Notes under the pieces: generated by a model
Told to the model about the DNA's origin: nothing
Database searches by the model: none
The model's input: the letters and a program-made list of their open reading frames with translations, nothing else
Assembly: GCA_018604165.1 (NCBI GenBank)
Contig: CP075895.1
Location: forward strand, 2,475,001-2,539,000
DNA: 64,000 nt
DNA from: Chitinophagaceae bacterium LGM1
Lineage (GTDB): Bacteria > Bacteroidota > Bacteroidia > Chitinophagales > Chitinophagaceae
Direction of reading: 5' to 3'
Part shown: positions 17,050 to 31,808 of the stretch, piece after piece
Layout: each line of letters starts with the position of its first letter
Numbering within the stretch: position 1 is the first letter of the stretch
Position numbers and translations under genes: made by a program

Positions 17050-18723
17050 ATGAAAAAAAATAAGCAGAGCAGGATATTGTTGCACCTGAACATTATCGCC
17101 GTATTAGTCTGCCTTTCGTTTTTGGTGTACATAGCTGCCTATATCGGCAAAGCTACACATGCATCATATTTTGCCATAGCGGCTGTGGCATTTATCAGCA
17201 ATCTGTACTTGCTGCACAGAAAAAAAGTACATACCGTTGCCGTAATGAGTGTGGTGTATTCGGATATGCTGGTACTCTTGTTCGATTCCGGTTTTGTAAA
17301 CAATTACAACAACAGTGTGGTGCTGTATATCCCACTATTGCTGTTTGGTTATGTAGTTACGGGTTACGAAAACAGGTGGCAGCGTGTTTTTACCATATCG
17401 TTTACGTTTCTGTGCCTGCTGGCAGTAAACCTTACAGACCTGACACCCAAACTGGGGTTAGCTTTTCAGCAAAATGACGAGATGGCTATTGCCATGCAGA
17501 TATTCAATCTCATCATTGCCATCATCTGCACATTGCTGATAGCGCGTACCATCACCCGCAACAATTTTTATATGGAAGAGGCATTGGCAGATGCCAAAGA
17601 AACCGCCGAGCAATCGCTGAAAGAGAAAAACCGTTTTCTTTCTATCATGAGCCATGAGATACGTACCCCTGCTAATGCCATACTGGGCATGACGCACCTG
17701 CTGAAAGAAAAAGGCGTGCCGGAAAGCATCAGGCGAGATGTACAATTACTGCACTATTCATCGCAACACTTGAAATCGCTGATAGACAATGTACTCTACT
17801 ACAATAATCTGGAAATGGGTAAAGTAGATGTAGAGCTGCGCCCTTTCGACATCCGCAAATTTTGCCACAACGCCGTTGATAGCTTTGTACTGGAAGCTGC
17901 CAAGAAAAACATAGAACTGCATTTTGATTTTGACGACAGAATACCGCAATTCGTTTTGGGCGATTATGAAAAGCTGATATTGGTATTGCACAACTTGCTG
18001 AGCAATGCCATCAAGTTTACTAAAAAAGGCGAGGTGTTTTTGTGGGTGAAGATGAGCCATATTGATGACAAGAACTGCTATGTACTGTTTAAAATTGCAG
18101 ATACGGGTGTGGGGATTAATGATGAAAAAATGGCTGATATATTCAGCGTCTTCAGCCAGTTGGATAGTAAGATAACACGTAGCCACGATGGTATGGGGCT
18201 AGGCTTGTCTATATCGCAAAAACTGCTGCAACTGATGCATAGCTCCCTGCACGTCAGTTCTGAAGAAGGGGTGGGTACTACCTTTTCTTTCGAGGCTACA
18301 TTGGGGCTTACGAATGAAGTGAAAGACGATGAGCAACGCTTTATAGAAACGCACGACCTGAGCACGGTAAAAGTGCTGCTGGTAGAAGACAATAAACTGA
18401 ATATACTGGTAGCGAAAAAAATACTGGACAGTATGAATGCCAGCGTGTCTGTTGTTAAAAATGGGCTGGAAGCTGTGAAAGAACTAACTAACAATGCGTA
18501 CGATGTTGTATTGATGGATCTGCACATGCCCGTGATGGATGGCTTTGAAGCTACCAGGGAGATACGCAAGAAAGACAATCGTACCCCCATCATCGCCTTT
18601 ACCGCAGATGCATATGAAGAAGCAAGACTGAAAGCCAAAGAAGCAGGCATGAGTGATTTTATTACCAAACCATTCGACCCAGTGTTGCTATACCATAAAA
18701 TAATAACCAACCTTGCACCGTAA
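17050..18723 (+). CDS. Hybrid sensor histidine kinase with C-terminal receiver domain
   Basis: A 557-residue inner-membrane sensor. Five or six membrane segments occupy about 9-165 with no obvious extracytoplasmic sensor domain. A short coiled linker leads to HisKA with the phosphorylated His202 (SIMSHEIRTP), then the ATPase domain (N-box around 313-325, DTGVGI at 351-356, GMGLGLSI at 381-388). A receiver domain (about 440-555) has the acidic pair in VEDN, phosphoacceptor Asp490 (VLMDLHMP) and Lys540 (TKPF). No output domain is fused and no partner lies next to it, so phosphate probably moves to a distant histidine phosphotransfer protein. It has its own consensus promoter. Confidence 0.92.
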   Translation: MKKNKQSRILLHLNIIAVLVCLSFLVYIAAYIGKATHASYFAIAAVAFISNLYLLHRKKVHTVAVMSVVYSDMLVLLFDSGFVNNYNNSVVLYIPLLLFGYVVTGYENRWQRVFTISFTFLCLLAVNLTDLTPKLGLAFQQNDEMAIAMQIFNLIIAIICTLLIARTITRNNFYMEEALADAKETAEQSLKEKNRFLSIMSHEIRTPANAILGMTHLLKEKGVPESIRRDVQLLHYSSQHLKSLIDNVLYYNNLEMGKVDVELRPFDIRKFCHNAVDSFVLEAAKKNIELHFDFDDRIPQFVLGDYEKLILVLHNLLSNAIKFTKKGEVFLWVKMSHIDDKNCYVLFKIADTGVGINDEKMADIFSVFSQLDSKITRSHDGMGLGLSISQKLLQLMHSSLHVSSEEGVGTTFSFEATLGLTNEVKDDEQRFIETHDLSTVKVLLVEDNKLNILVAKKILDSMNASVSVVKNGLEAVKELTNNAYDVVLMDLHMPVMDGFEATREIRKKDNRTPIIAFTADAYEEARLKAKEAGMSDFITKPFDPVLLYHKIITNLAP

Positions 18724-18765: not shown

Positions 18766-19422
18766 TTATTGCTTCCTTACTTTTCCTGAACCCGATATAT
18801 CTGTATTGACGGTAGATGGATTGCCCCAATACTTTATCTGTCCAGAGCCTGATATGTGTGCATCTAATTTTTCTTCTACCGTTATTTCAATATCGCCAGA
18901 GCCCGAAACTTCGGCACGCACATATTTGCCTGTTGCTTGCCGCATGTTTATATTACCACTGCCATTTATATCTAACGATAGGTTTTGGAAATAGTTCGGA
19001 TAACTATACACATTGCCGCTACCGTTTATTTCTACTTTCAGGTTATCAGTCTTCAGGCTGTCTTTGATGTTGATGTTACCACTGCCGTTCAGTTCTATTT
19101 TGTTGAGGCTTGTGGTGTAGAGTGTTACTTTGATGTTGTTATTGCGCACGTTATAATACTTGCGTTCAAACTCAAGGTTCAGTGTGCTGCCCGATACATT
19201 GGTTTTATATACAGGTACTAAATTCTGATACCCGCTCACTACTATTTTGTTTTCTTTTGATGGTACTATTTCCAACTCCTCGCTACCGTTCAGATTCACC
19301 TGTGTGATGGTGCCGATGCTGCGTGTTTCTGATACGATGGATCCTTCTCCTTTGATGCGGTTTTTGCTGCAAGATGCGAGTGTCAGTGATGCGCCTATTG
19401 CCAAGGCTAGTATTCTTTTCAT
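18766..19422 (-). CDS. Head-GIN-domain (DUF2807) lipoprotein
   Basis: A 218-residue lipoprotein with lipobox LASC (Cys18). The rest is the DUF2807 / head-GIN type: a right-handed beta-helix-like array with repeated NGSGN / SGSG turns (ELNGSGNINI, EINGSGNVY, DINGSGNINM, EVSGSGDIEI, HISGSGQIKY). Such proteins are auto-transporter-like surface or periplasmic adhesins of unknown function. It follows the TonB receptor gene by 38 bases on the same strand and is probably in its operon, hence under the ECF-type promoter at 21884-21909. Confidence 0.85.
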   Translation of the reverse strand: MKRILALAIGASLTLASCSKNRIKGEGSIVSETRSIGTITQVNLNGSEELEIVPSKENKIVVSGYQNLVPVYKTNVSGSTLNLEFERKYYNVRNNNIKVTLYTTSLNKIELNGSGNINIKDSLKTDNLKVEINGSGNVYSYPNYFQNLSLDINGSGNINMRQATGKYVRAEVSGSGDIEITVEEKLDAHISGSGQIKYWGNPSTVNTDISGSGKVRKQ

Positions 19423-19460: not shown

Positions 19461-21863
19461 TTAATGAAACTCTATACGGTAACTCAGGTTGGGGAACAAG
19501 CCAAGTTGATTAACTGTTTTTATGCCTGCTGTTTTATCATCGTAATAAGAGAAAAAGTAGTTTTTGCGGTTGGTTACATTTTGTACATCCAACTGTACTG
19601 TGTGCGTAGCACGTTTGTTATTTACTTTATAGTATACACCGCCATCTACACGAAAATAGCCTGGTACTTGTGTGGTGAAGTATTGCCCCTGCACATATTC
19701 AGCCTTGCCGCTTTGCTTCGATTTAGCAATATCTATCACTGATTCGCGAGAGCCACCATTTGACATGAGCTTGCTATTCAGCCCTATCAGCTTACGCCCG
19801 CTATGGTTTAGTTTGAATTCTTTACCGCCCACTATATTGAATGTATATCCTCTGTTAAAACGTGTATTGTACTCTTTACCCCCATAGGTTGTGTAAGAAC
19901 TTTTGAAAACAGAGCCTGTAGCCAGTATATAATAGTTATTGGCAAACGGACGTTCGAGGCTGATGTCTAAGCCGTAATTTCTGCCAGTACCCTCACTCAC
20001 CAATTGTTTAGTACCAAGTAGCGAGTACACATCCAGCGCATTGATGATGGAGAAGCCCGAATTGCTGTCTTTTTCCACAGGTATGTTATACAGATGCTGA
20101 TAATACACTTCTGCTTTCAGGCGTGTTTTGAAAGGCAATGATGTTTCGTAACCCAATACGGTATGGAAAGCGCGTTGGAGGTCGAGGTTTTTGTTGGGGT
20201 GTGTTACCGCTTGTCCCAGGTTTGCATTTTGGAATAGGTAGGTAGAGAGGTGTTCGGGTTTGCTATGCAAGCCTGCTGCCAGTGTGAATTTGTTTTTATT
20301 GGGCTGATACGTAATTGTAGCGCGTGGCTCTATGCTGTACTTGCTATTGAGTGCCAGATAAGAACCATGCACACCCGCTGTTGCAGTCAGCTTTTCAGAG
20401 AGTCTTGTTTTCCATTGCAGATAGGCTTGATAGAATTGTGTGTTCCCATCGCCATCCAGTATGTTGCGCCATGTATCATCCGAAAAGTCAAAATATTGTT
20501 GGTTCATAGTATATGCCCAATACTGCCCTATTACACCCACCCTATAAGTATGACGTGCGTTTACTTTCTGGTTGTACATGACAGATGCACGCAAGGCATT
20601 GTTTGTAATACCGCTACGTTGTATAGATACCCTTTCATAATCGTTGGCGGGATTCAACGTATCTGCATCGTTGGTTGATTTGTCTTGCGATACCGCAACA
20701 ACCGTTTTGATGTAAGCATCTTTCTTTACAAAATATTGATGCGATATACCACCTGTGTATATGTGGTTTCTGCTGTCGAATTTTATATTGAGGTTATCAT
20801 CATCCCATTTGCTGCTGTCTTTGTCTGGTGTATTGGCAGCCACATTGTAGCCCCCTAAACCCCAAAGTGTAAACGTACCCGCTTTAGCAGTTGGCAGGTT
20901 CACTTTGAATGAACCATCCTGATAGGCAGGAATTGACTCTCCTACATCAATAAAGTTTTTCAGTAGGGTGAGTGTAGAATACCGATAGTTGACAAGGTAT
21001 GAGCCTTTGCTGTTTTTACTGAATGGCCCTTCGGTTGCCAACTCTATACCCAATGTACCAATGGCAACTGTATGCTCCGCACGTTTGTTATTACCTGTAC
21101 GCAGGTTCAGGTCGAATGCACCTGAAAGGGCGTTACCTATTTCGGGTACAAATGCACCTGTGTAGAAGTCTGAATTGCCCAGTGTGTTAGCATTCAGCAT
21201 ACTGATAGCACCCCCACTTGCACCTTGCGATGTAAAGTGGTTGGGGTTGGGTATCTCTATACCTTCCATACGCCACAGCACACCTTTGGGCGAGTTGCCG
21301 CGTACTACAATGCTGTTATCCATATCGCCCGCATTGCTTACCCCGGGGAAGTTTTGCACCATACGCGCAGGGTCTGCAAACGCTGCAGCATAACGGCGTG
21401 TTTCTTCTACCGAAAATGCACGAGCACTAACGGCTGCAAATTCGTTCATGGGTTTGATGCGGTCTTTACTTGCTGCTTTTACCGTTACTTCGTCCAGCTT
21501 TTTCAGGCTCTCGTTCATAGAAATATTCAAGTCCAGTTCCTTACCGCTGATAACGGGTGTTTCGGCAACTGTATAATCTTCAAAACCTACCATTTTAAAG
21601 ATGAATGTTTGCCTGCCCAATGGCACGCCTGTTAGTGTGTATGCACCTGCATCGTCCGTTATGGCATTTATTTTAGTGTCAGATTGCAGTACCACTACCA
21701 CACCGGGCAGTGGCTGTTTTGATGCAGCGTCCGTAACAATACCATGCACTTTTTGGGTGATGGTCGTTTTCTTAGTGCTTGCGGCTGCTTCTTGCGCAGT
21801 ACCTGTGTTGCTGTTAATTAGTGCCAGTCCTGCTATCAATAGCCAGTTTCTGAAGTGTAACAT
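19461..21863 (-). CDS. TonB-dependent outer-membrane receptor with carboxypeptidase-like regulatory domain
   Basis: An 800-residue outer-membrane receptor: signal peptide (about 1-22), CarboxypepD_reg-like domain (about 38-120, VHGIVTDAASKQPLPGVVVVLQ), plug (about 145-260, with NFPGVSNAGDMDNSIVVRG and MEGIEIPNPNHF), and a barrel to the C-terminus. The plug wording resembles receptors for metal chelates or small organic ligands, but the ligand is unknown. I chose the ATG at 21863: a promoter-like ECF element lies at 21884-21909, inside the longer reading frame. The head-GIN lipoprotein gene follows 38 bases later. Confidence 0.92.
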   Translation of the reverse strand: MLHFRNWLLIAGLALINSNTGTAQEAAASTKKTTITQKVHGIVTDAASKQPLPGVVVVLQSDTKINAITDDAGAYTLTGVPLGRQTFIFKMVGFEDYTVAETPVISGKELDLNISMNESLKKLDEVTVKAASKDRIKPMNEFAAVSARAFSVEETRRYAAAFADPARMVQNFPGVSNAGDMDNSIVVRGNSPKGVLWRMEGIEIPNPNHFTSQGASGGAISMLNANTLGNSDFYTGAFVPEIGNALSGAFDLNLRTGNNKRAEHTVAIGTLGIELATEGPFSKNSKGSYLVNYRYSTLTLLKNFIDVGESIPAYQDGSFKVNLPTAKAGTFTLWGLGGYNVAANTPDKDSSKWDDDNLNIKFDSRNHIYTGGISHQYFVKKDAYIKTVVAVSQDKSTNDADTLNPANDYERVSIQRSGITNNALRASVMYNQKVNARHTYRVGVIGQYWAYTMNQQYFDFSDDTWRNILDGDGNTQFYQAYLQWKTRLSEKLTATAGVHGSYLALNSKYSIEPRATITYQPNKNKFTLAAGLHSKPEHLSTYLFQNANLGQAVTHPNKNLDLQRAFHTVLGYETSLPFKTRLKAEVYYQHLYNIPVEKDSNSGFSIINALDVYSLLGTKQLVSEGTGRNYGLDISLERPFANNYYILATGSVFKSSYTTYGGKEYNTRFNRGYTFNIVGGKEFKLNHSGRKLIGLNSKLMSNGGSRESVIDIAKSKQSGKAEYVQGQYFTTQVPGYFRVDGGVYYKVNNKRATHTVQLDVQNVTNRKNYFFSYYDDKTAGIKTVNQLGLFPNLSYRIEFH

Positions 21864-21883: not shown

Positions 21884-21909
21884 GACAATGAGTGAATATT
21901 TTACCCCTA
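21884..21909 (-). promoter_or_regulatory. ECF-sigma-type promoter element, copy C (TonB receptor)
   Basis: On the minus strand TAGGGGTA (21909-21902), 14 bases, then TGTC (21887-21884). The same arrangement with the same spacing occurs before the sigma gene and before the repeat protein. The ATG at 21863 is about 20 bases past TGTC. Assignment to the local sigma factor is inference. Confidence 0.7.
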
Positions 21910-22066
21910 TGAGAGGTTGATATTTTTATTATTATATATTTTTCACGAAGTATTGTATTTCGATTGTGCTGCAAAGCAAATACAGGCAATGGTTGTACGG
22001 AATTACCCTTCGGTAAAAACAGTATATCAATCGGTCAATACACTTGTACGTGCGGTGAATGTTTTA

Positions 22067-23188
22067 TCAGAGGTGAAAGTGCATACCTGCCGCAAAACCC
22101 AGATAGATGCCGTTGAAATTGCCCCATTCATACCGGCTCCACAGATAGTTGTTGCTGATTTCATTGCCGTTGTAGTTTTCTCCCTGTACATGGTTGATGG
22201 CAGGGCCTGCAAATACTTCAATTTTGTTGCCTACACTGTATGCGGGCATTACACGTAGCGATGACTTCAGGTATATCTCGTCTGTAAAATCTGTATAACT
22301 GGTGCTGCTGCCCTCTATGTTCAGTCGAAACTTCTTAGTGATGCGCAAGTGCGCTCCAAGCCCTGCCTCTGCGGCATACAATGGTTTACGTGCATTGTTG
22401 TGGTAGCCTGCACCTACTAATCCATACATCACCCTGCCACCCGAACGGAAGGTAGCCATATTGGTAACACCATCGTAGGTAGTAACGCCTAAAGATTTTT
22501 GCCCGTTGCGTATGATGTTAATGGGTGCAATGGGATAATCGCTACTGTCTGCTATGTTGATGAAACCTGCCACCTGCACACCACGCACTTCTTCGGCAAT
22601 GTTTATAAAACCTGCTATTTGCGCATCTGCATCTTTTGCCTGATTGATGAAGCCCCCTACCTGCACACCATCTACGTTGCCTGCACTATTCATAAAGCCC
22701 GCCACCTGCAAGCCCCTGAAATCTTTTACAGCGAGGTTTATAAAACCTGCACCTTGTATACCTTCGCTTTGTTCAAATGCTATATTGGCAAAGCCTCCCA
22801 ATTGCGCACCATTGATGCTGCCTGCAATATTCATAAAGCCTGCTGCCTGCAAGCCATGTGTATAGTTGCGCACCGTATTCATAAAGCCCGCCAGTTGCGC
22901 GCCATTCATCTCGTTGCGCACATGGTTGGAGAAACCCGCGAGCATTATTCCATCCGCATTATTGAATACATAACTGCTGAATCCTGAAGCGCAAAAAGAT
23001 GTTTCGTTATAAGACATACCACCAATAACATGCAGTGAAAAGCCATTGGTATATTCTTTAGCAAAAACGCCATTGGTACTAAGTGGATAAACAAACCCTA
23101 TATGCGCTGCCGAAAATTTACGTGGCTGCGCATAGGTTGTGGTAGTAAAAAGCAAGGCTGCTAATAATCCTGCTAATTTCGTTGTCAT
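22067..23188 (-). CDS. Secreted/outer-membrane protein with 16-residue GxQxxGxxN repeats
   Basis: A 373-residue protein with a signal peptide (about 1-20, TTTTYAQ). From about 75 to 215 it carries about nine repeats of 15-16 residues with the pattern [VIM]-x-G-x-Q-[LVI]-[AG]-G-F-x-N (for example MNGAQLAGFMNTVRNY, VRGVQVAGFINIADSS). The C-terminal 150 residues look like outer-membrane beta strands ending in an aromatic-rich stretch. It is a smaller paralog of the STN-repeat protein just upstream. I recall similar surface repeats named after Leptospira LA_2272, but cannot check this. The ATG at 23188 is set by the ECF element at 23214-23239. Function unknown. Confidence 0.75.
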   Translation of the reverse strand: MTTKLAGLLAALLFTTTTYAQPRKFSAAHIGFVYPLSTNGVFAKEYTNGFSLHVIGGMSYNETSFCASGFSSYVFNNADGIMLAGFSNHVRNEMNGAQLAGFMNTVRNYTHGLQAAGFMNIAGSINGAQLGGFANIAFEQSEGIQGAGFINLAVKDFRGLQVAGFMNSAGNVDGVQVGGFINQAKDADAQIAGFINIAEEVRGVQVAGFINIADSSDYPIAPINIIRNGQKSLGVTTYDGVTNMATFRSGGRVMYGLVGAGYHNNARKPLYAAEAGLGAHLRITKKFRLNIEGSSTSYTDFTDEIYLKSSLRVMPAYSVGNKIEVFAGPAINHVQGENYNGNEISNNYLWSRYEWGNFNGIYLGFAAGMHFHL

Positions 23189-23213
23189 ATACTTTCTTTC
23201 TGTTTGATAGTAT

Positions 23214-23239
23214 GACAACAAGCGGAGCATATACCCCTA
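23214..23239 (-). promoter_or_regulatory. ECF-sigma-type promoter element, copy B (repeat protein)
   Basis: On the minus strand TAGGGGTA (23239-23232), 14 bases, TGTCATAC (23217-23210). It sits between the STN-repeat gene and the repeat protein gene and gives a leader of about 18 bases. The match extends further to copy A (GTTGTCATAC) and to copy C (CTCATAGGGGTA). Confidence 0.72.
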
Positions 23240-23248
23240 TGAGATTTT

Positions 23249-25096
23249 TCAGAAAATATTGATGCCTACGCTCCAGCCTATCCAGCTTGTCCAGTCTTTG
23301 TTGTGGCGTGTACCACCAAAGCCCAGATTGGGTATGTCATTGCGATAACCTGCGGGAAATTTGGTCTGGTCTATATAACAGTAGTTATAAGACGGTGCAA
23401 TGTATGCAGAGAGGTACTTATTCAATTTGTAATTGACACCAGCCTCTAAACGGAAGAAGCCATTTGTATATTCAAAATCGCCGAGGTAGAGTTGATTAAC
23501 CGTCAATTCAGGATTGATGGAAAAATGCTTACTGATATTGAACTGTCTGCCTATACCATAACCGCCTGTTAATGCCATTTGGTTACCTGCATTTACCCCA
23601 AAAGAAAGAATGGTGTACATATTGCGGTTGCCCAGCTTACCTGCTACATGGATATTGGTTACCTCGTTGGACGATATCACTACTTTATGATACCCTTTTG
23701 CAATAAAGTTTACGAAGCCTATACTCACACCAGATGAGGTATCCGCAATATTTATTAAACCCACCTGCACACCTTTTACATGCTTGGCATAATTGAAAAA
23801 GCCCGATACCTGTGTGCCTTCCATCTCTGTATGGGCTACGTTTACAAAGCCCGCTATTTGTGTACCCTCTACCGTATCGTGCGCGTAGTTGGCTGCGCCA
23901 GATACTTGTACCCCCTCTATCTTCTCTACCGCAACATTCACAAAGCTCGCTATCTGTGCGCCATTAACGGTACTGTCTGCATAGTTCACAGCACCACTTA
24001 TCTGTGTGCCATTCACATTGCCTTTCGTCAGGTTCACAAAGCCCGCTATCTGCGCACCCTCAATGTTGCCCCATACATGGTTGTATGCACCGCCTATCTG
24101 CATTCCTTTCAGCTCTGCATTTACCAGATTGGCAAAGCCTGCAAACTGCCATCCTTCCGATGCGTGCATCACATGGTTGTACACACCTGCTATTTGCAAA
24201 CCACTTACCCTGCCGCCAGCCATGTTGAAAATACCTGCCAGTTGCGCACCACGCACATCTGTTTTGTTGATGTTGAATACACCTGCCATTTCAAAACCAT
24301 TGACACCCCCGGCATATCCACCTAATAAGTTGAAAGAAAATTTATTGACCGCCTGCCCGCTCATACGCCCGTGTGTACCCAAGCCCGGTATCAATGATGT
24401 TTGGTATGGTTTGTCGGCAAAGAATTTACCGAGATTTACACCCTGCATACGTTGTTTGGAAGAAAGAAATAAACGACTGAGCCAATTGCCCTCTACACCT
24501 GTTTTCTTTGTTACCACAAAAGAGTCCAGTTCAAAATTCTTGGGCGTGATGCCAAGTTTCACTTCCTGTTTTGTGGATGCATGTACTACAATTGCCGTAT
24601 CTATATACCAGGATTTGCTGACGGATATAACCGCAGGTTTGTTTCTATCTCTCAGCCGCAAGCGGAAGTAACCCAACTCGTTGGTGAGTGTACTGACAAA
24701 TTGTGTTTTCTCGTACACGCTGGCATGGGGTATGCTTTCGCCTGTTACCACATCTTTTACATACCCTGTAGCATACCAATACATAGCCGCCGATGGCTGT
24801 ATGATGATGTGCGTAGCTGTTTCAGTGTATTCAAAATTTTTATCGAACAGCATACCCAATACCTGCCGTACAGTTTTGTTGTTGGCAGATACCGACACGA
24901 GGCTATCATCCTGTATCAGCTCGCTATTGTAAGAAAAATAAAAGCCCCCTTGCTTGCTAATGGTTTTCAACACTTCGCCCACGGGTTTACGTTTGGCATC
25001 TATATTGATGTTCTTATTTAAATACTGCTGCGCCGTTGCAATAAACGGCGAAACAATACAGAGTATGATGCATATTAGTTTGTACAGATAGTTCAT
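23249..25096 (-). CDS. STN-domain surface protein with carboxypeptidase-like domain, 16-residue repeats and C-terminal barrel-like region
   Basis: A 615-residue envelope protein with an unusual order of parts: signal peptide (1-22), STN domain (about 28-102, NINIDAKRKPVGEVLKTISK), CarboxypepD_reg-like domain (about 106-185), then about thirteen 16-residue repeats (about 265-470; IEGAQIAGFVNLTKGN is typical), and a C-terminal barrel-like part. The STN domain is normally the signalling head of TonB-dependent transducers that talk to FecR, yet no TonB plug or receptor barrel is present. The gene follows sigma and FecR (19 bases after FecR), so it is the likely outer-membrane partner of that pair. 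Ligand unknown. Confidence 0.82.
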   Translation of the reverse strand: MNYLYKLICIILCIVSPFIATAQQYLNKNINIDAKRKPVGEVLKTISKQGGFYFSYNSELIQDDSLVSVSANNKTVRQVLGMLFDKNFEYTETATHIIIQPSAAMYWYATGYVKDVVTGESIPHASVYEKTQFVSTLTNELGYFRLRLRDRNKPAVISVSKSWYIDTAIVVHASTKQEVKLGITPKNFELDSFVVTKKTGVEGNWLSRLFLSSKQRMQGVNLGKFFADKPYQTSLIPGLGTHGRMSGQAVNKFSFNLLGGYAGGVNGFEMAGVFNINKTDVRGAQLAGIFNMAGGRVSGLQIAGVYNHVMHASEGWQFAGFANLVNAELKGMQIGGAYNHVWGNIEGAQIAGFVNLTKGNVNGTQISGAVNYADSTVNGAQIASFVNVAVEKIEGVQVSGAANYAHDTVEGTQIAGFVNVAHTEMEGTQVSGFFNYAKHVKGVQVGLINIADTSSGVSIGFVNFIAKGYHKVVISSNEVTNIHVAGKLGNRNMYTILSFGVNAGNQMALTGGYGIGRQFNISKHFSINPELTVNQLYLGDFEYTNGFFRLEAGVNYKLNKYLSAYIAPSYNYCYIDQTKFPAGYRNDIPNLGFGGTRHNKDWTSWIGWSVGINIF

Positions 25097-25115
25097 GCAG
25101 GGGTAGATGCTTTGC

Positions 25116-26090
25116 TTATTCTAATACTATTTGTCCGTCTTTTCTTACTACTGTAATATTAAAAGTACCACCCAACACATCCAGTATATCATCCAGCGAT
25201 TGATTGTTGAATGTTGTCGTTATTCGCAAGTTGTTCAGTGTGGCATTAGCTATTACTATGTTGGCATTGTATGCCTCGTTCAGCACAGGTACAAGGCGGC
25301 TGAGTGGTGTGTTATTGCAAACAAAGGCTTTGGTACGGTAGTAGTTGTGCAATTCATCTTCCGTCTTTTCTTTGATGGGCAGCTCGGTATCTTTTTTTAC
25401 AGTAGCTCTTTCTTTCGGATTCAGTACTACGCCTTTCAGTTTTTTGCTCACCTGCACCACACCTGTTTCTACCACTACTTCTGTTTGGCTGCTGTTTGTT
25501 TTTACGTTGAATGATGTACCTACCACCTGCACATCTGCCTCGTTTGCATGTATGATAAAAGGCTTTTGTTTATCGGGTGCTACGTTGAAGAATGCTTCAC
25601 CGTCCAGCGTTACCTCTCTGGTATCGCCACTGAATTTTTTGGGGTACTTTATTGTCGCATGTTTGTTGAGTGTAATGGTAGAGCCGTCGGGTAGCGTTTG
25701 TGATAATACCGCATCGCCCGAAGCAAGCGTAACAGTTCCTGCGTTATACAAGTATAAATAGGCCATCCAGCTACCGCCTATCAACAGTATCAGTGTTGCT
25801 GCAATGCGTAGCCAGTTGGTACGCCTGCCAAGTGGTATGGTTTTGGTAGTGGTCGTTTGTGTATCTATTCTTTGTTTAAAACGTTGCCATGCAGCATTCT
25901 CATCAACATTACTAGTTGCTTCCAATTTTTTTGATTCAGCCCATATATAGCCTAACTGCTCCAGCTGCTTTTTATTGGCATCACTGGCAGCCGCCCATTG
26001 CTCCACTTGCTCGCGCTCTTCGGGCGTAGCCTCTCCCAACAGGTATTTTACCTGTAGGTCATTATTTATATGGCTGTTGTTCTCGTTCAC
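25116..26090 (-). CDS. FecR-family anti-sigma / sigma regulator
   Basis: A 324-residue single-pass inner-membrane protein. The cytoplasmic part (1-90) binds sigma; a membrane segment lies at about 93-113; the periplasmic FecR domain (about 118-215, with DGSTITLNKHATIKYPKKF and EVTLDGEAFFNVA) is followed by the DUF4974 domain (about 245-324), which in this family has an STN-like fold and can contact an STN domain. It starts 10 bases after the sigma gene and is followed by the STN-repeat protein gene, so the three form one signalling unit: outer-membrane STN protein to FecR to sigma. Confidence 0.93.
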   Translation of the reverse strand: MNENNSHINNDLQVKYLLGEATPEEREQVEQWAAASDANKKQLEQLGYIWAESKKLEATSNVDENAAWQRFKQRIDTQTTTTKTIPLGRRTNWLRIAATLILLIGGSWMAYLYLYNAGTVTLASGDAVLSQTLPDGSTITLNKHATIKYPKKFSGDTREVTLDGEAFFNVAPDKQKPFIIHANEADVQVVGTSFNVKTNSSQTEVVVETGVVQVSKKLKGVVLNPKERATVKKDTELPIKEKTEDELHNYYRTKAFVCNNTPLSRLVPVLNEAYNANIVIANATLNNLRITTTFNNQSLDDILDVLGGTFNITVVRKDGQIVLE

Positions 26091-26100
26091 TTTGTTTGTT

Positions 26101-26634
26101 TTACATATACAGTAATATTATCCACAATACCGGCAGCAGGTCTGCCATTTTTATACGCATCATTTTCAGTGCTTTGCCCATTTGGTTTTCCACTGTTTTT
26201 ACTGAAAGTCCCAATTTGTCTGCTATCTCCCGGTATTTCAATTCTTCAAACCTACTTAGCTGGAATATGGTGCGGCACTGTTCGGGTAGTTCTGCCAATG
26301 CCTGCCGTAGTCGTTCTTCCAGTTCATGCACCCTTTTTGTTGATGCGTTATTATCTGCTTCGCTACCGGTATGTATGGCGTGTTTTCTGTAGTTAGCTTT
26401 TACTTTTTCATGTTTCAGATAGTTCATACAATCGTTGTGTATGGTACGGTACAAGTACGCATTTGCAGATTGTACCTCATGCAGCCTCTCTCTCTTTTCC
26501 CACAGCTTCATAAACATCTGTTGTACTATTTCTTCCCCTTCGTCTTCGTCGTTCAGTATAGTGCAGGCGTAGGCATGTAACCTCTTGTAGTGAGATTTAA
26601 ACAGTTCTTCAAACAGTATGTCGGTATTCGCCAT
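26101..26634 (-). CDS. ECF RNA polymerase sigma factor, FecI-like
   Basis: A 177-residue sigma factor. Region 2 is at about 8-75 (FEELFKSHYKRLHAYA ... DEDEGEEIVQQMFMKLWEKRE) and region 4 at about 115-165 (LPEQCRTIFQLSRFEELKYREIADKLGLSVKTVENQ, here split: REIADKLGLSVKTVE is the helix-turn-helix). The frame is open to 26718, but a TATCTTTG -7 element at 26691-26698 lies inside it, so I use the ATG at 26634, which also matches the usual family start; ATGs at 26661 and 26667 are alternatives. It is co-transcribed with FecR, and an ECF-type element upstream suggests autoregulation. Confidence 0.9.
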   Translation of the reverse strand: MANTDILFEELFKSHYKRLHAYACTILNDEDEGEEIVQQMFMKLWEKRERLHEVQSANAYLYRTIHNDCMNYLKHEKVKANYRKHAIHTGSEADNNASTKRVHELEERLRQALAELPEQCRTIFQLSRFEELKYREIADKLGLSVKTVENQMGKALKMMRIKMADLLPVLWIILLYM

Positions 26635-26690
26635 GCTTGTGGTGGCATTACCGTTTGTCATATCCATGCAGCCTGTGTGGTATCGGGGTG

Positions 26691-26698
26691 CAAAGATA
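26691..26698 (-). promoter_or_regulatory. Housekeeping-type -7 element for the sigma gene
   Basis: TATCTTTG on the minus strand (in CTTATCTTTGCACC) is an exact TAnnTTTG match. Together with the ECF-type element at 26728-26753 it suggests two promoters, one basal and one autoregulated. Confidence 0.55.
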
Positions 26699-26727
26699 AG
26701 TGCTTCTGCCGTTGCCATTTAGTGTAT

Positions 26728-26753
26728 GACAACATCCTGCAACAATACCCCTA
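26728..26753 (-). promoter_or_regulatory. ECF-sigma-type promoter element, copy A (sigma/FecR operon)
   Basis: On the minus strand TAGGGGTA (26753-26746), 14 bases, TGTCATAC (26731-26724). Spacing and both boxes equal those of copies B and C. A T/A-rich stretch lies upstream, as with an UP element. Confidence 0.72.
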
Positions 26754-26939: not shown

Positions 26940-27122
26940 ATGAATATAAGGATGGAAACACAGCCGTATATAAAAAACACACCCGAATACAATGTACCGG
27001 GTGCGCCTGTTGCCGACAATAGTGCCGGACTGAAACTATTTCTGATGTTATTTCTTACAGCTATCGTCGCATTCGCTAGTGCAGCCTTTGCTACAGTCGT
27101 GGTTGCAAGTTTCGCTGCATGA
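26940..27122 (+). CDS. Possible small membrane protein, antisense overlap with the next gene
   Basis: A 60-residue frame whose first half is polar (METQPYIKNTPEYNVPG) and whose second half is one strong hydrophobic segment (LKLFLMLFLTAIVAFASAAF). TTG (26883-26885), 21 bases and CATATTTG (26907-26914) upstream look like a promoter on this strand. The last 75 bases overlap the 3' end of the minus-strand gene at 27048, and the hydrophobic part is antisense to its Cys-rich tail, so the frame may be a chance shadow. Confidence 0.3.
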   Translation: MNIRMETQPYIKNTPEYNVPGAPVADNSAGLKLFLMLFLTAIVAFASAAFATVVVASFAA

Positions 27123-27908
27123 TTCTTTGCTGTACTTTCCGTTTACATCATACTCTTTTATGCGTTTGAAAGTGGCTTTGTCCACATCTATATATATCTT
27201 CTTTACCGGGTAATCGGCCTTTGCAGGCGTTATGGGTATGTTGTTTATTTTCTCTGTTGCTAACAGCGCCTGCTCGTCTATCTCTTTTACATATACCGTT
27301 CCTTCACAATCATCGCATTCACAATCTTCGCGGCTGTAGTAGCGTGCATACACTTTTACTTTCAGTTTGGCAGTACCTGTACAACGCTCTACATATTTAA
27401 CTGTTTGGTTTTCTATAGTGGGATTGTAGTGATAGAAGGCGTTGCCGCATTCGTTCATGATGTACAGGTTGCAATAGCCGGGCATGGGCTTTATCAGCCA
27501 GCAGGCAATATTGCGCTGATTGTTTAGCGCCAGCAGGCTGTATATATAATTGTGCTTGCCATCGCCCAGCATACCTATAGCACCAAACGGAATGTTAGTA
27601 GCTACCAACTTGTCTTTGGTAAAAGCAGGGTCTGCAACACCCGTATAGCCTATAGAGCGAAACAGTGCGTTGATTTCGTCTTTATACCTTGCGTCTTTAT
27701 CCAATGCTTTCAAATTTTTGAAATACACATCGGCGTTTACCACATAGCGCAGTGGTATGAATTGTGGTGATGCACCCAGTTTGGTGATAACAGCAGGTGT
27801 CTTGTCTTTTGGTACATTGAATATACGGTGCTTGCCCCCACAATTTGATTGCGCGTAAGATGAAACAGCCATAACAGCCAGCATACAAAGCAGAAAAGCC
27901 TTCTTCAT
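27048..27908 (-). CDS. Secreted hypothetical protein with Cys-rich tail
   Basis: A 286-residue exported protein with a signal peptide (about 1-19, ending SYAQ). The body has no domain that I recognise. There is a short CECDDCEG motif at about 215 and a C-terminal 22-residue tail with seven Cys in a CxxxC-type spacing (CSETCNHDCSKGC, then TSECDDSCKK), which suggests metal binding or disulfide knots. I chose the ATG at 27908, where the signal peptide starts. It is divergent from the outer-membrane protein at 27999. Function unknown. Confidence 0.65.
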   Translation of the reverse strand: MKKAFLLCMLAVMAVSSYAQSNCGGKHRIFNVPKDKTPAVITKLGASPQFIPLRYVVNADVYFKNLKALDKDARYKDEINALFRSIGYTGVADPAFTKDKLVATNIPFGAIGMLGDGKHNYIYSLLALNNQRNIACWLIKPMPGYCNLYIMNECGNAFYHYNPTIENQTVKYVERCTGTAKLKVKVYARYYSREDCECDDCEGTVYVKEIDEQALLATEKINNIPITPAKADYPVKKIYIDVDKATFKRIKEYDVNGKYSKESCSETCNHDCSKGCTSECDDSCKK

Positions 27909-27998
27909 AAAAAACGGTTTGATGACAAGATACATATAAAATGATATTAAGGCAATACGTTATGTGCCTGCTCACAGGTACTTGCCGTATATTGCAGT

Positions 27999-30676: not shown

Positions 30677-31291
30677 TTACACATCTCTGAATTTTTCTAT
30701 TTCAGCCAGATTGGCTTTGATATTTTTTATAGTATCGAAGTATAAATATTTATACAATAATAGCTGCACAATAATCATAAGTACAGAACCAATAATCATT
30801 CTTGGCAGAAAAATATCAGGCAAATCCTGCACATCCATTCTTAAAAGCCATTTTACAAATACAATAACAGTACTGACAATAATTACAGGTGAAAGTATAA
30901 GCGTAGCCAATCGTTCTTTAATAATAAATAACCTGAAACGCTCAATAGTACCTGCCGTTTGTGTAAGATTATTCATATTTAAATCAAGAGATGTAAGCAT
31001 TTTATGTTTGTAGTAAAATGTCACAAAACATGTTGCCACTAATGCTAATGATATAAAGTAAGAAACAGTCATCAATGCATTGTCAAATGCTGTATTGAAT
31101 TGTAACAAATAAACCATTGCCAGCAAGCAGCATATCACAAAACCCAGGTATTCAAAATTCAAGATTTTTCTAATCGCATTTTTCGATTTGTCTTTCAGCA
31201 TCATACTGATAATCTTTTCATTCAGCATTTTGTTCTGTTGCAATACTTTGTCATACTGTTGCCATTTGTTTTTCATTTCTTCCAGTTCCAT
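30677..31291 (-). CDS. Four-helix membrane protein paired with an ECF sigma factor
   Basis: A 204-residue protein with a charged, coiled N-terminus (MELEEMKNKWQQYDKVL), four hydrophobic segments (about 45-65, 72-94, 128-150, 165-185) and a short cytoplasmic tail. It has no zinc-binding anti-sigma motif and no FecR domain. It starts 22 bases after the ECF sigma gene on the same strand, so it is a candidate non-FecR anti-sigma factor or regulator; this is inference from position only. It ends 2 bases from the convergent gene. Confidence 0.7.
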   Translation of the reverse strand: MELEEMKNKWQQYDKVLQQNKMLNEKIISMMLKDKSKNAIRKILNFEYLGFVICCLLAMVYLLQFNTAFDNALMTVSYFISLALVATCFVTFYYKHKMLTSLDLNMNNLTQTAGTIERFRLFIIKERLATLILSPVIIVSTVIVFVKWLLRMDVQDLPDIFLPRMIIGSVLMIIVQLLLYKYLYFDTIKNIKANLAEIEKFRDV

Positions 31292-31313: not shown

Positions 31314-31808
31314 TTACAATAATGGCTGCGCTTGTTTGCGCATCCTGTCTTTTATACGGTTCAGTTTTGTGCCTACATTGCTGATGCTGATGCCCAATAT
31401 ATCTGCTATCTCTGCATGAGGCCTGTCTTCCAGATAAAGTAATACCAACGCCTTGTCAAGCGGGGGTAGTGTACCTATCATTTGGTGCATCAGTTTGTAG
31501 GCTTCGGCATCAGCACTATCCAATTCGTCTGCCATTTGTATAGCAGTCATATCGGGTAATTGTGCTGAGTGGTATTTACGCTTCTTTCTTTTGTGGGTGA
31601 TGGCTGTATTCAATGCTACCCTATATAGCCATGTGCCAATAGCTGCATCGCCGCGGTAGCGTTGGTAGCCACTCCAAGCTTGTAATACTATTTCCTGAAA
31701 CAAGTCGCGGGCATCTTCAGCATCAGCCGCATACAGGTGGCATACTTTGTACACCAGCCGCTCGTGCTGTTGTATCATATCCGTAAATGCTGCCTGTAGC
31801 TGTTGCAT
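31314..31808 (-). CDS. ECF RNA polymerase sigma factor
   Basis: A 164-residue sigma-70 factor with region 2 at about 10-75 (HERLVYKVCHLYAADAEDA, DLFQEIVLQAWSGYQRYRG) and region 4 at about 105-160 (LPPLDKALVLLYLEDRPHAE, IADILGISISNVGTKLNRIK). It lacks the extra domains of FecI-type factors and is closer to the generic RpoE-like group of Bacteroidota. The four-helix membrane protein gene follows 22 bases later and probably encodes its regulator. I see no ECF promoter element like the TAGGGGTA one upstream. Confidence 0.9.
   Translation of the reverse strand: MQQLQAAFTDMIQQHERLVYKVCHLYAADAEDARDLFQEIVLQAWSGYQRYRGDAAIGTWLYRVALNTAITHKRKKRKYHSAQLPDMTAIQMADELDSADAEAYKLMHQMIGTLPPLDKALVLLYLEDRPHAEIADILGISISNVGTKLNRIKDRMRKQAQPLL

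Follow-up and report, generated by a model that had tools for sequence, protein, structure and literature searches.

A conserved two-box element and the predicted ECF sigma regulon of an STN-protein locus in Chitinophagaceae

Genes and elements of the locus

The locus comprises six genes on the minus strand of the window, the whole 64,000-nucleotide stretch of the Chitinophagaceae bacterium LGM1 genome that was analysed. It begins with a FecI-like ECF sigma factor (26101-26718; 205 aa from the ATG at 26718, or starting at the ATG at 26667), which in a profile search scored 178.9 bits against TIGR02985 (cut-off 126.4) and matched Sigma70_r2 and r4_2. The FecR anti-sigma factor that follows (25116-26090) matches PF04773 (FecR) and PF16344 (FecR_C) above cut-off, and a single hydrophobic segment can be read from its sequence. 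The third gene encodes the presumed sensor, a 615-aa STN protein (23249-25096) comprising an STN domain (PF07660, above cut-off), a CarboxypepD_reg-like, transthyretin-like domain (PF13715, just below cut-off at 30.6 against 32.2), LA_2272-type repeats (NF047436, 34.5 bits against a cut-off of 25) and C-terminal strands. Next comes a second repeat protein of 373 aa (22067-23188), akin to the repeat part of the sensor and lacking an STN domain; it has no Pfam match, and its NF047436 score of 16.7 bits is below the cut-off of 25. The preliminary description of this region had called it a paralog of the presumed sensor. The relatedness holds (34% identity, E 2.7e-30), and for the sensor role itself the STN repeat protein is the best candidate, as discussed below. 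The last two genes encode an 800-aa TonB-type receptor (19461-21863), with the CarboxypepD_reg domain PF13715 above cut-off, Plug below it (21.5 against 23.9) and no STN match in Pfam, and a head-GIN (DUF2807) protein (18766-19422; PF10988, 115.1 bits against 24.2), by the look of its signal sequence a lipoprotein.

The genome contains two FecR genes in total and 21 TIGR02985 matches at E 1e-3. The only other FecR gene (L079, 543-2118) has its own FecI-type sigma gene, upstream of which the best match to the element described below has 4 mismatches (L198). On either side of the locus, the head-GIN gene is faced by a convergent hybrid histidine kinase/receiver gene (17050-18723, plus strand), and upstream of the sigma operon lies a gene (27048-27935, minus strand) for a 295-aa protein that has a Cys-rich tail and no Pfam match; both are kept in the five closest relatives fetched (L058-L062). 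A second ECF sigma, of another type (31314-31808, minus strand), is followed by a gene (30677-31291, minus strand) whose 204-aa product has hydrophobic segments, lacks a Pfam match and is perhaps the membrane partner of that sigma.

Three minus-strand copies of one element, TAGGGGTA-N14-TGTC, had been described with identical spacing. Scanning the window recovered exactly these three matches, all on the minus strand. Copy A (26728-26753) is the predicted promoter of the sigma/fecR/STN operon; copy B (23214-23239), which begins 9 bases past the stop codon of the STN gene, that of the second repeat protein; and copy C (21884-21909) that of the TonB-type receptor and head-GIN protein. Shuffling the window 100 times gave a mean of 0.01 copies, and three were reached in no shuffle. 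A scan of the whole genome (one contig of 3,322,193 bases), which the preliminary description had suggested, found the exact pattern three times, all inside the same 4.9 kb, and the reversed-pattern control not once; no further exact copy exists on the contig. The shared flanks reported earlier, GTTGTCATAC in copies A and B and CTCATAGGGGTA in copies B and C, are likewise present. As a T precedes TGTC in every copy, the element is best written TAGGGGTA-N13-TTGTC.

The copies had been placed about 20 bases upstream of their start codons, with copy A further away. This is accurate for copy C, whose TGTC ends 20 nt before the ATG at 21863, and for copy B (25 nt, ATG at 23188); for copy A the distance is 9 nt to the in-frame ATG at 26718 or 60 nt to the later in-frame ATG at 26667, depending on which is chosen. 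In related loci, TGTC lies 18-32 nt ahead of the first ATG for most repeat-protein genes and 19-46 nt ahead of it for nearly all receptors, and most sigma genes have an in-frame TTG, GTG or ATG 8-21 nt past TGTC, often with an ATG at 56-65 nt. Copy A therefore looked further from its start because the sigma gene has a near in-frame start plus a later ATG. The stretch between the two ATGs (26667-26718, minus strand) may be a coding N-terminal extension or a second, housekeeping promoter. A conserved frame, E-A/G-x-I-F from a TTG or ATG, runs through it in most of 60 aligned loci, and in L189 stops occur between the copy A site and the later sigma ATG. The same stretch of the window holds a TATCTTTG box that recurs in many relatives; the flavobacterial -7 consensus is given as TAnnTTTG in one passage of the literature (PMC9723704), and no TTG element was seen at the usual distance from the TATCTTTG box.

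The element had also been put forward as a ready search key. Its exact form gives three matches against none for the reversed pattern. The relaxed form GGGGTA-N13-17-TTGTC matches 11 times in this genome against 15 times for the reversed control, and is thus no better than chance here. Allowing one mismatch to TAGGGGTA-N13-TTGTC gives 8 matches in the genome against 2 reversed; five of the 8 lie outside the locus, three of them inside open frames. A candidate extra target is marked by TAGGGGTA/T-N13-TTGTT (L261, 1501-1526), 42 nt before an unlinked gene of this genome (G000) for a 457-aa protein, which we take, by eye, to be a flavin amine oxidase. Of 14 other congeners, G006 alone has this protein at E 1e-60 (86% identity); in G006, TAGGGGTT-N13-TTGTT stands at the same place before the gene (L266), and the upstream sequence is otherwise different. 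The amine-oxidase-like gene is thus a plausible candidate for a fourth target. Another one-mismatch site lies 205 nt before a gene whose product is, by eye, presumably transposase-like.

Conservation of the element across Chitinophagaceae

Loci were fetched by similarity to the STN protein, ignoring the element, and the 80 named loci are the best 80 of 124 relatives. Most belong to Chitinophagaceae (Chitinophaga, Taibaiella, Niastella, Terrimonas, Flavipsychrobacter and others); Pedobacter, Mucilaginibacter and Desertivirga contribute one locus each. Sigma and fecR genes accompany the STN gene in 77 of the 80; L171 and L184 have neither a sigma nor a fecR match, and the truncated L125 has no sigma match. 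In the window and these 80 loci, a site was counted when it had at most two mismatches in 13 positions at spacer 13, no more than 400 bases upstream of a gene; a gene was excluded if its start had under 150 bases of surrounding sequence, and the sigma gene of L119 is part of another system. A site was found upstream of the sigma gene in 69 of 76 cases, of the second repeat protein in 45 of 45, of the receptor in 45 of 50 and of the head-GIN gene in 9 of 48, counts that come from loci related to one another and are not independent events. None was found upstream of fecR (0/79) or STN (0/81) in the same set; as both genes lie inside the operon, their lack of a site serves as a clean negative control. 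Exact matches occur solely at spacer 13 among spacers 9-17, and other spacers, chiefly 10 and 16, give some matches with one or two mismatches (at most 6 with one mismatch per gene class). The boxes are kept across many genera of Chitinophagaceae, and a locus each of Pedobacter and Desertivirga has them ahead of repeat-protein genes; some loci carry variants such as TTGTT. Core conservation across the 168 sites is inflated by their selection, and bases outside that selection are conserved as well: a purine precedes the -35 box in 165 sites and a G precedes TTGTC in 120, with T at position 28 in 133 and A at positions 35 and 36 in 138 and 149.

At the level of genomes, the exact element is present in 107 of 394 members of the family (208 copies), against 21 (22 copies) for a spacing one base longer. 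At E 1e-20, 135 of 388 genomes, nearly the same draw as the 394, have the STN protein. Among the element-bearing genomes, 87 of 107 are STN-positive, and G004, which is outside that draw, has the STN protein too; among genomes with at least two copies the figure is 59 of 62, or 60 counting G004. The exact element is absent from 48 STN-positive genomes. Fisher's test on these numbers (table 87/19/48/234) gives p 7e-33, a value which assumes that the smaller draw is nested in the larger and that genomes are independent, which they are not. The longer-spacing control is also commoner in STN-positive genomes (12 of 21), so that part of the co-occurrence may reflect genome size.

Of the 208 copies, 41 from 21 genomes were fetched, hand-picked mainly for their distance from regions already examined. 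The genes that follow belong to the sigma, receptor, repeat, head-GIN or 208-aa families in 34 of the 41: 11 copies precede a sigma gene of the same type, 14 a TonB-type receptor (7 of a more distant family), 3 a repeat protein, 2 a head-GIN gene or fragment and 4 the 208-aa protein. The remaining 7 precede none of the regulon families. In a second set of 30 copies picked by program, which partly overlaps the first, 18 stand before regulon families and 12 before none of them; taken by itself, the short exact pattern gives a sizeable share of false matches. A single contig of G138 carries the sigma gene and two receptors at distances of 1.5 to 5.6 Mb, all three with a site. These gene families keep the element far from the sigma locus, as must be the case for a regulon acting in trans.

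The 208-aa family, which has no Pfam match, carries the element in four genomes (L259, 493-1116; L244; L256; L257), and in L171 and L184, where neither sigma nor fecR was matched, relatives of it directly precede the STN gene. The same 287-aa gene has the element 90 nt upstream of it in two genomes that share a genus (L254, 461; L255, minus strand, 4032). Its product looks like an acyl-ACP UDP-GlcNAc acyltransferase; either regulation or coincidence could account for this arrangement.

The sigma factor that probably reads the element

To our knowledge, few ECF promoter sequences have been established in Bacteroidota, and some genomes hold scores of FecI-type sigma genes (151 TIGR02985 matches in G016, for example). 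We examined the 500 bases upstream of 30 TIGR02985 sigma genes from six genomes, among the matches listed. The exact site is present at 5 of the 30, which are the sigma genes of this system (G000, G006, G016, G023 and G142), and the other 25 have no site in those 500 bases, their best matches showing 3 to 6 mismatches.

Covariation between promoters of the same locus was measured over 60 loci with at least two sites, giving 123 promoter pairs that were permuted among loci. Agreement within a locus was 0.94 against 0.63 permuted at position 26, the last base of the -10 box (z 11.0), 0.72 against 0.53 at position 22 (z 5.6) and 0.50 against 0.32 at position 27 (z 4.4), and was weaker at positions 28-30 and at -1, the base next to the -35 box. 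At the thirteen spacer positions (9-21) agreement did not exceed permutation, with z from -1.8 to 2.2. The T form at position 26 is uniform in 14 loci, which may be one clade, so that the -10 covariation may rest on few events; each such change involves several promoters. A search for the sigma residue that accounts for the C/T switch at this position found only broad differences between groups.

The preliminary description held that the local sigma factor controls its own operon, the second repeat protein, and the receptor with the head-GIN gene. The distribution of sites across the related loci supports this claim, as do the unlinked copies before the same gene families, the 25 other sigma genes that lack a site and the covariation of the -10 box. 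Comparison across loci and genomes shows conserved sites at these positions, as expected of one predicted regulon, and ties them to this sigma among its paralogues. The three elements most likely answer to one regulator in an autoregulated ECF regulon, and we infer that the sigma factor encoded at the locus recognises them directly.

Presumed sensor, proposed mechanism and comparison with known systems

The structural model of the STN protein (mean pLDDT 85, pTM 0.56) has an STN-like fold followed by another beta domain, a linker of helices, a repeat region and eight C-terminal strands. In Foldseek searches the second domain matched transthyretin-like domains of carboxypeptidases (E 4.9e-4) and the C-terminus matched barrels such as PcoB and OmpA (both 9.8e-4) and NspA (3.7e-3), these barrel matches being weak and both sets having low TM-scores over the query. 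The second repeat protein gave similar weak barrel matches, none below E 1e-3. At E 1 the Protein Data Bank holds no sequence relatives of the STN protein, and Pfam gave it neither a Plug nor a receptor-barrel match. Of 49 relatives, at least 90% end in Phe, and a C-terminal Phe is common in outer-membrane barrels. The sensor does not look like a classical TonB receptor, and the STN repeat protein is the best candidate: an STN domain carried on a small predicted outer-membrane barrel with surface repeats is the likely sensor.

Taken together, we consider it probable that the elements are promoters of the one ECF sigma factor encoded at the locus, which an STN-barrel sensor and a FecR relay would place in a positive-feedback regulon for a surface ligand. 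At rest, the sigma factor would be held by FecR. The outer-membrane protein, with its STN and transthyretin-like domains, repeats and small beta-barrel, would sense something outside, and its STN domain, in the periplasm, would hand the signal on to FecR by way of the STN-like domain at the C-terminus of the latter. FecR would then be processed and the sigma factor become active, raising expression of its own operon, of the second, STN-less repeat barrel, and of the TonB-type receptor with the head-GIN surface protein. The outcome would be a positive-feedback regulon that senses one surface ligand and binds it or takes it up. In this scheme the relay from STN to FecR, the direction in which regulation runs and the ligand are proposals.

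The regulon and its promoter could be read correctly and the sensor still be FecR itself or the TonB-type receptor, with the repeat proteins as mere products. The receptor is the usual sensor in Fec-type systems, according to the part of the literature that bears on this point (PMC9249621); here it lacks an STN match, and it is the STN gene that partners sigma and fecR in their operon in 77 of 80 loci, whereas the receptor can lie elsewhere. We regard this possibility as unlikely. That the element is instead a site or promoter for another regulator, or for several, such as a general FecI-type promoter or an operator, seems to us quite improbable. Another sigma group was presumed to share promoters in Flavobacterium, as one section of a published study has it (PMC9723704). 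Against this reading, the other 25 of the 30 FecI-type sigma genes examined lack such a site, and this genome has just three exact copies alongside 21 TIGR02985 matches; the fixed spacing of the two boxes, their -35/-10-like layout and their nearness to start codons fit a promoter.

That the three copies match by chance, or stem from a recent local duplication that serves no function, is close to inconceivable. The copies do share short flanks, as duplicates might, but shuffles give 0.01 copies, the spacer bases agree no more than when permuted, and the boxes persist family-wide, which contradicts such an origin. A broader proposal, on which we judge the evidence evenly balanced, is that the locus represents a signalling class widespread in Chitinophagaceae and some relatives, with a non-TonB STN/repeat small-barrel transducer and an STN-less, sigma-induced twin that is perhaps an amplifier or decoy. 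If true, signalling would be independent of TonB energy and of transport. With one sigma factor, one sharply defined promoter and a compact regulon named together, a genetic test is straightforward.

Among the papers listed for the letters TAGGGG and GTTGTC, none concerns regulation in Bacteroidota by its title. Among those listed for Bacteroidetes STN/FecR signalling, proteins with STN and LA_2272 repeats, and DUF2807, no title or opening of an abstract describes this regulon; the ECF reclassification may mention the motif.

Several known systems resemble parts of the locus. In Sus-type polysaccharide loci, an ECF/anti-sigma pair likewise stands beside a TonB-type receptor and a surface protein; here the surface protein is DUF2807 instead, and no SusD-type Pfam match, as a SusC/SusD pair would give, was found among the six genes. 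In Porphyromonas an adhesin has been described that is a DUF2807 protein, in the portion of the report concerned (PMC10949514), and the regulon may therefore serve uptake or attachment. The repeats of the sensor score above the cut-off for the LA_2272 surface repeat proteins (NF047436) but are fused here to STN and transthyretin-like domains. Dma anti-sigma factors share with the predicted system a Bacteroidota ECF sigma factor controlled from the outer membrane without a TonB transducer. There, as an extract of the study describes, a single protein spans from the outer membrane to the cytosol (PMC13088901), whereas FecR (25116-26090) and the presumed outer-membrane protein (23249-25096) are separate open frames here.

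The closest parallels are with FecI/FecR/FecA-type signalling (Fec, Pup, Fox). The locus has, in common with these, an ECF sigma factor, a FecR-type regulator whose C-terminal domain is STN-like, and a presumed outer-membrane partner that carries an STN domain and is encoded here in the sigma/fecR operon. A sigma-type promoter at the TonB-type receptor gene, predicted from the site at 45 of 50 genes, would be a further likeness. In known surface signalling, the STN domain of a TonB-dependent transducer meets two periplasmic subdomains of the regulator, one of them STN-like (PMC7186176, in part), and a later study has argued, in the section relevant here, that this contact shields the regulator from proteolysis before the signal (PMC11637429). 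Two features differ. The sigma operon bears the promoter of the regulon, unlike fecIR of E. coli, which one passage of PMC9249621 has transcribed by sigma-70, and the STN domain belongs to a 615-aa repeat protein, predicted to end in a small barrel, rather than to a TonB receptor. The locus would work like FecI/FecR signalling but lacks one defining FecA-type feature, and is best seen as a variant of that type. It suggests that a protein other than a transporter can be the origin of STN-to-FecR signalling, with implications for the role that the STN domain of TonB transducers plays on its own.
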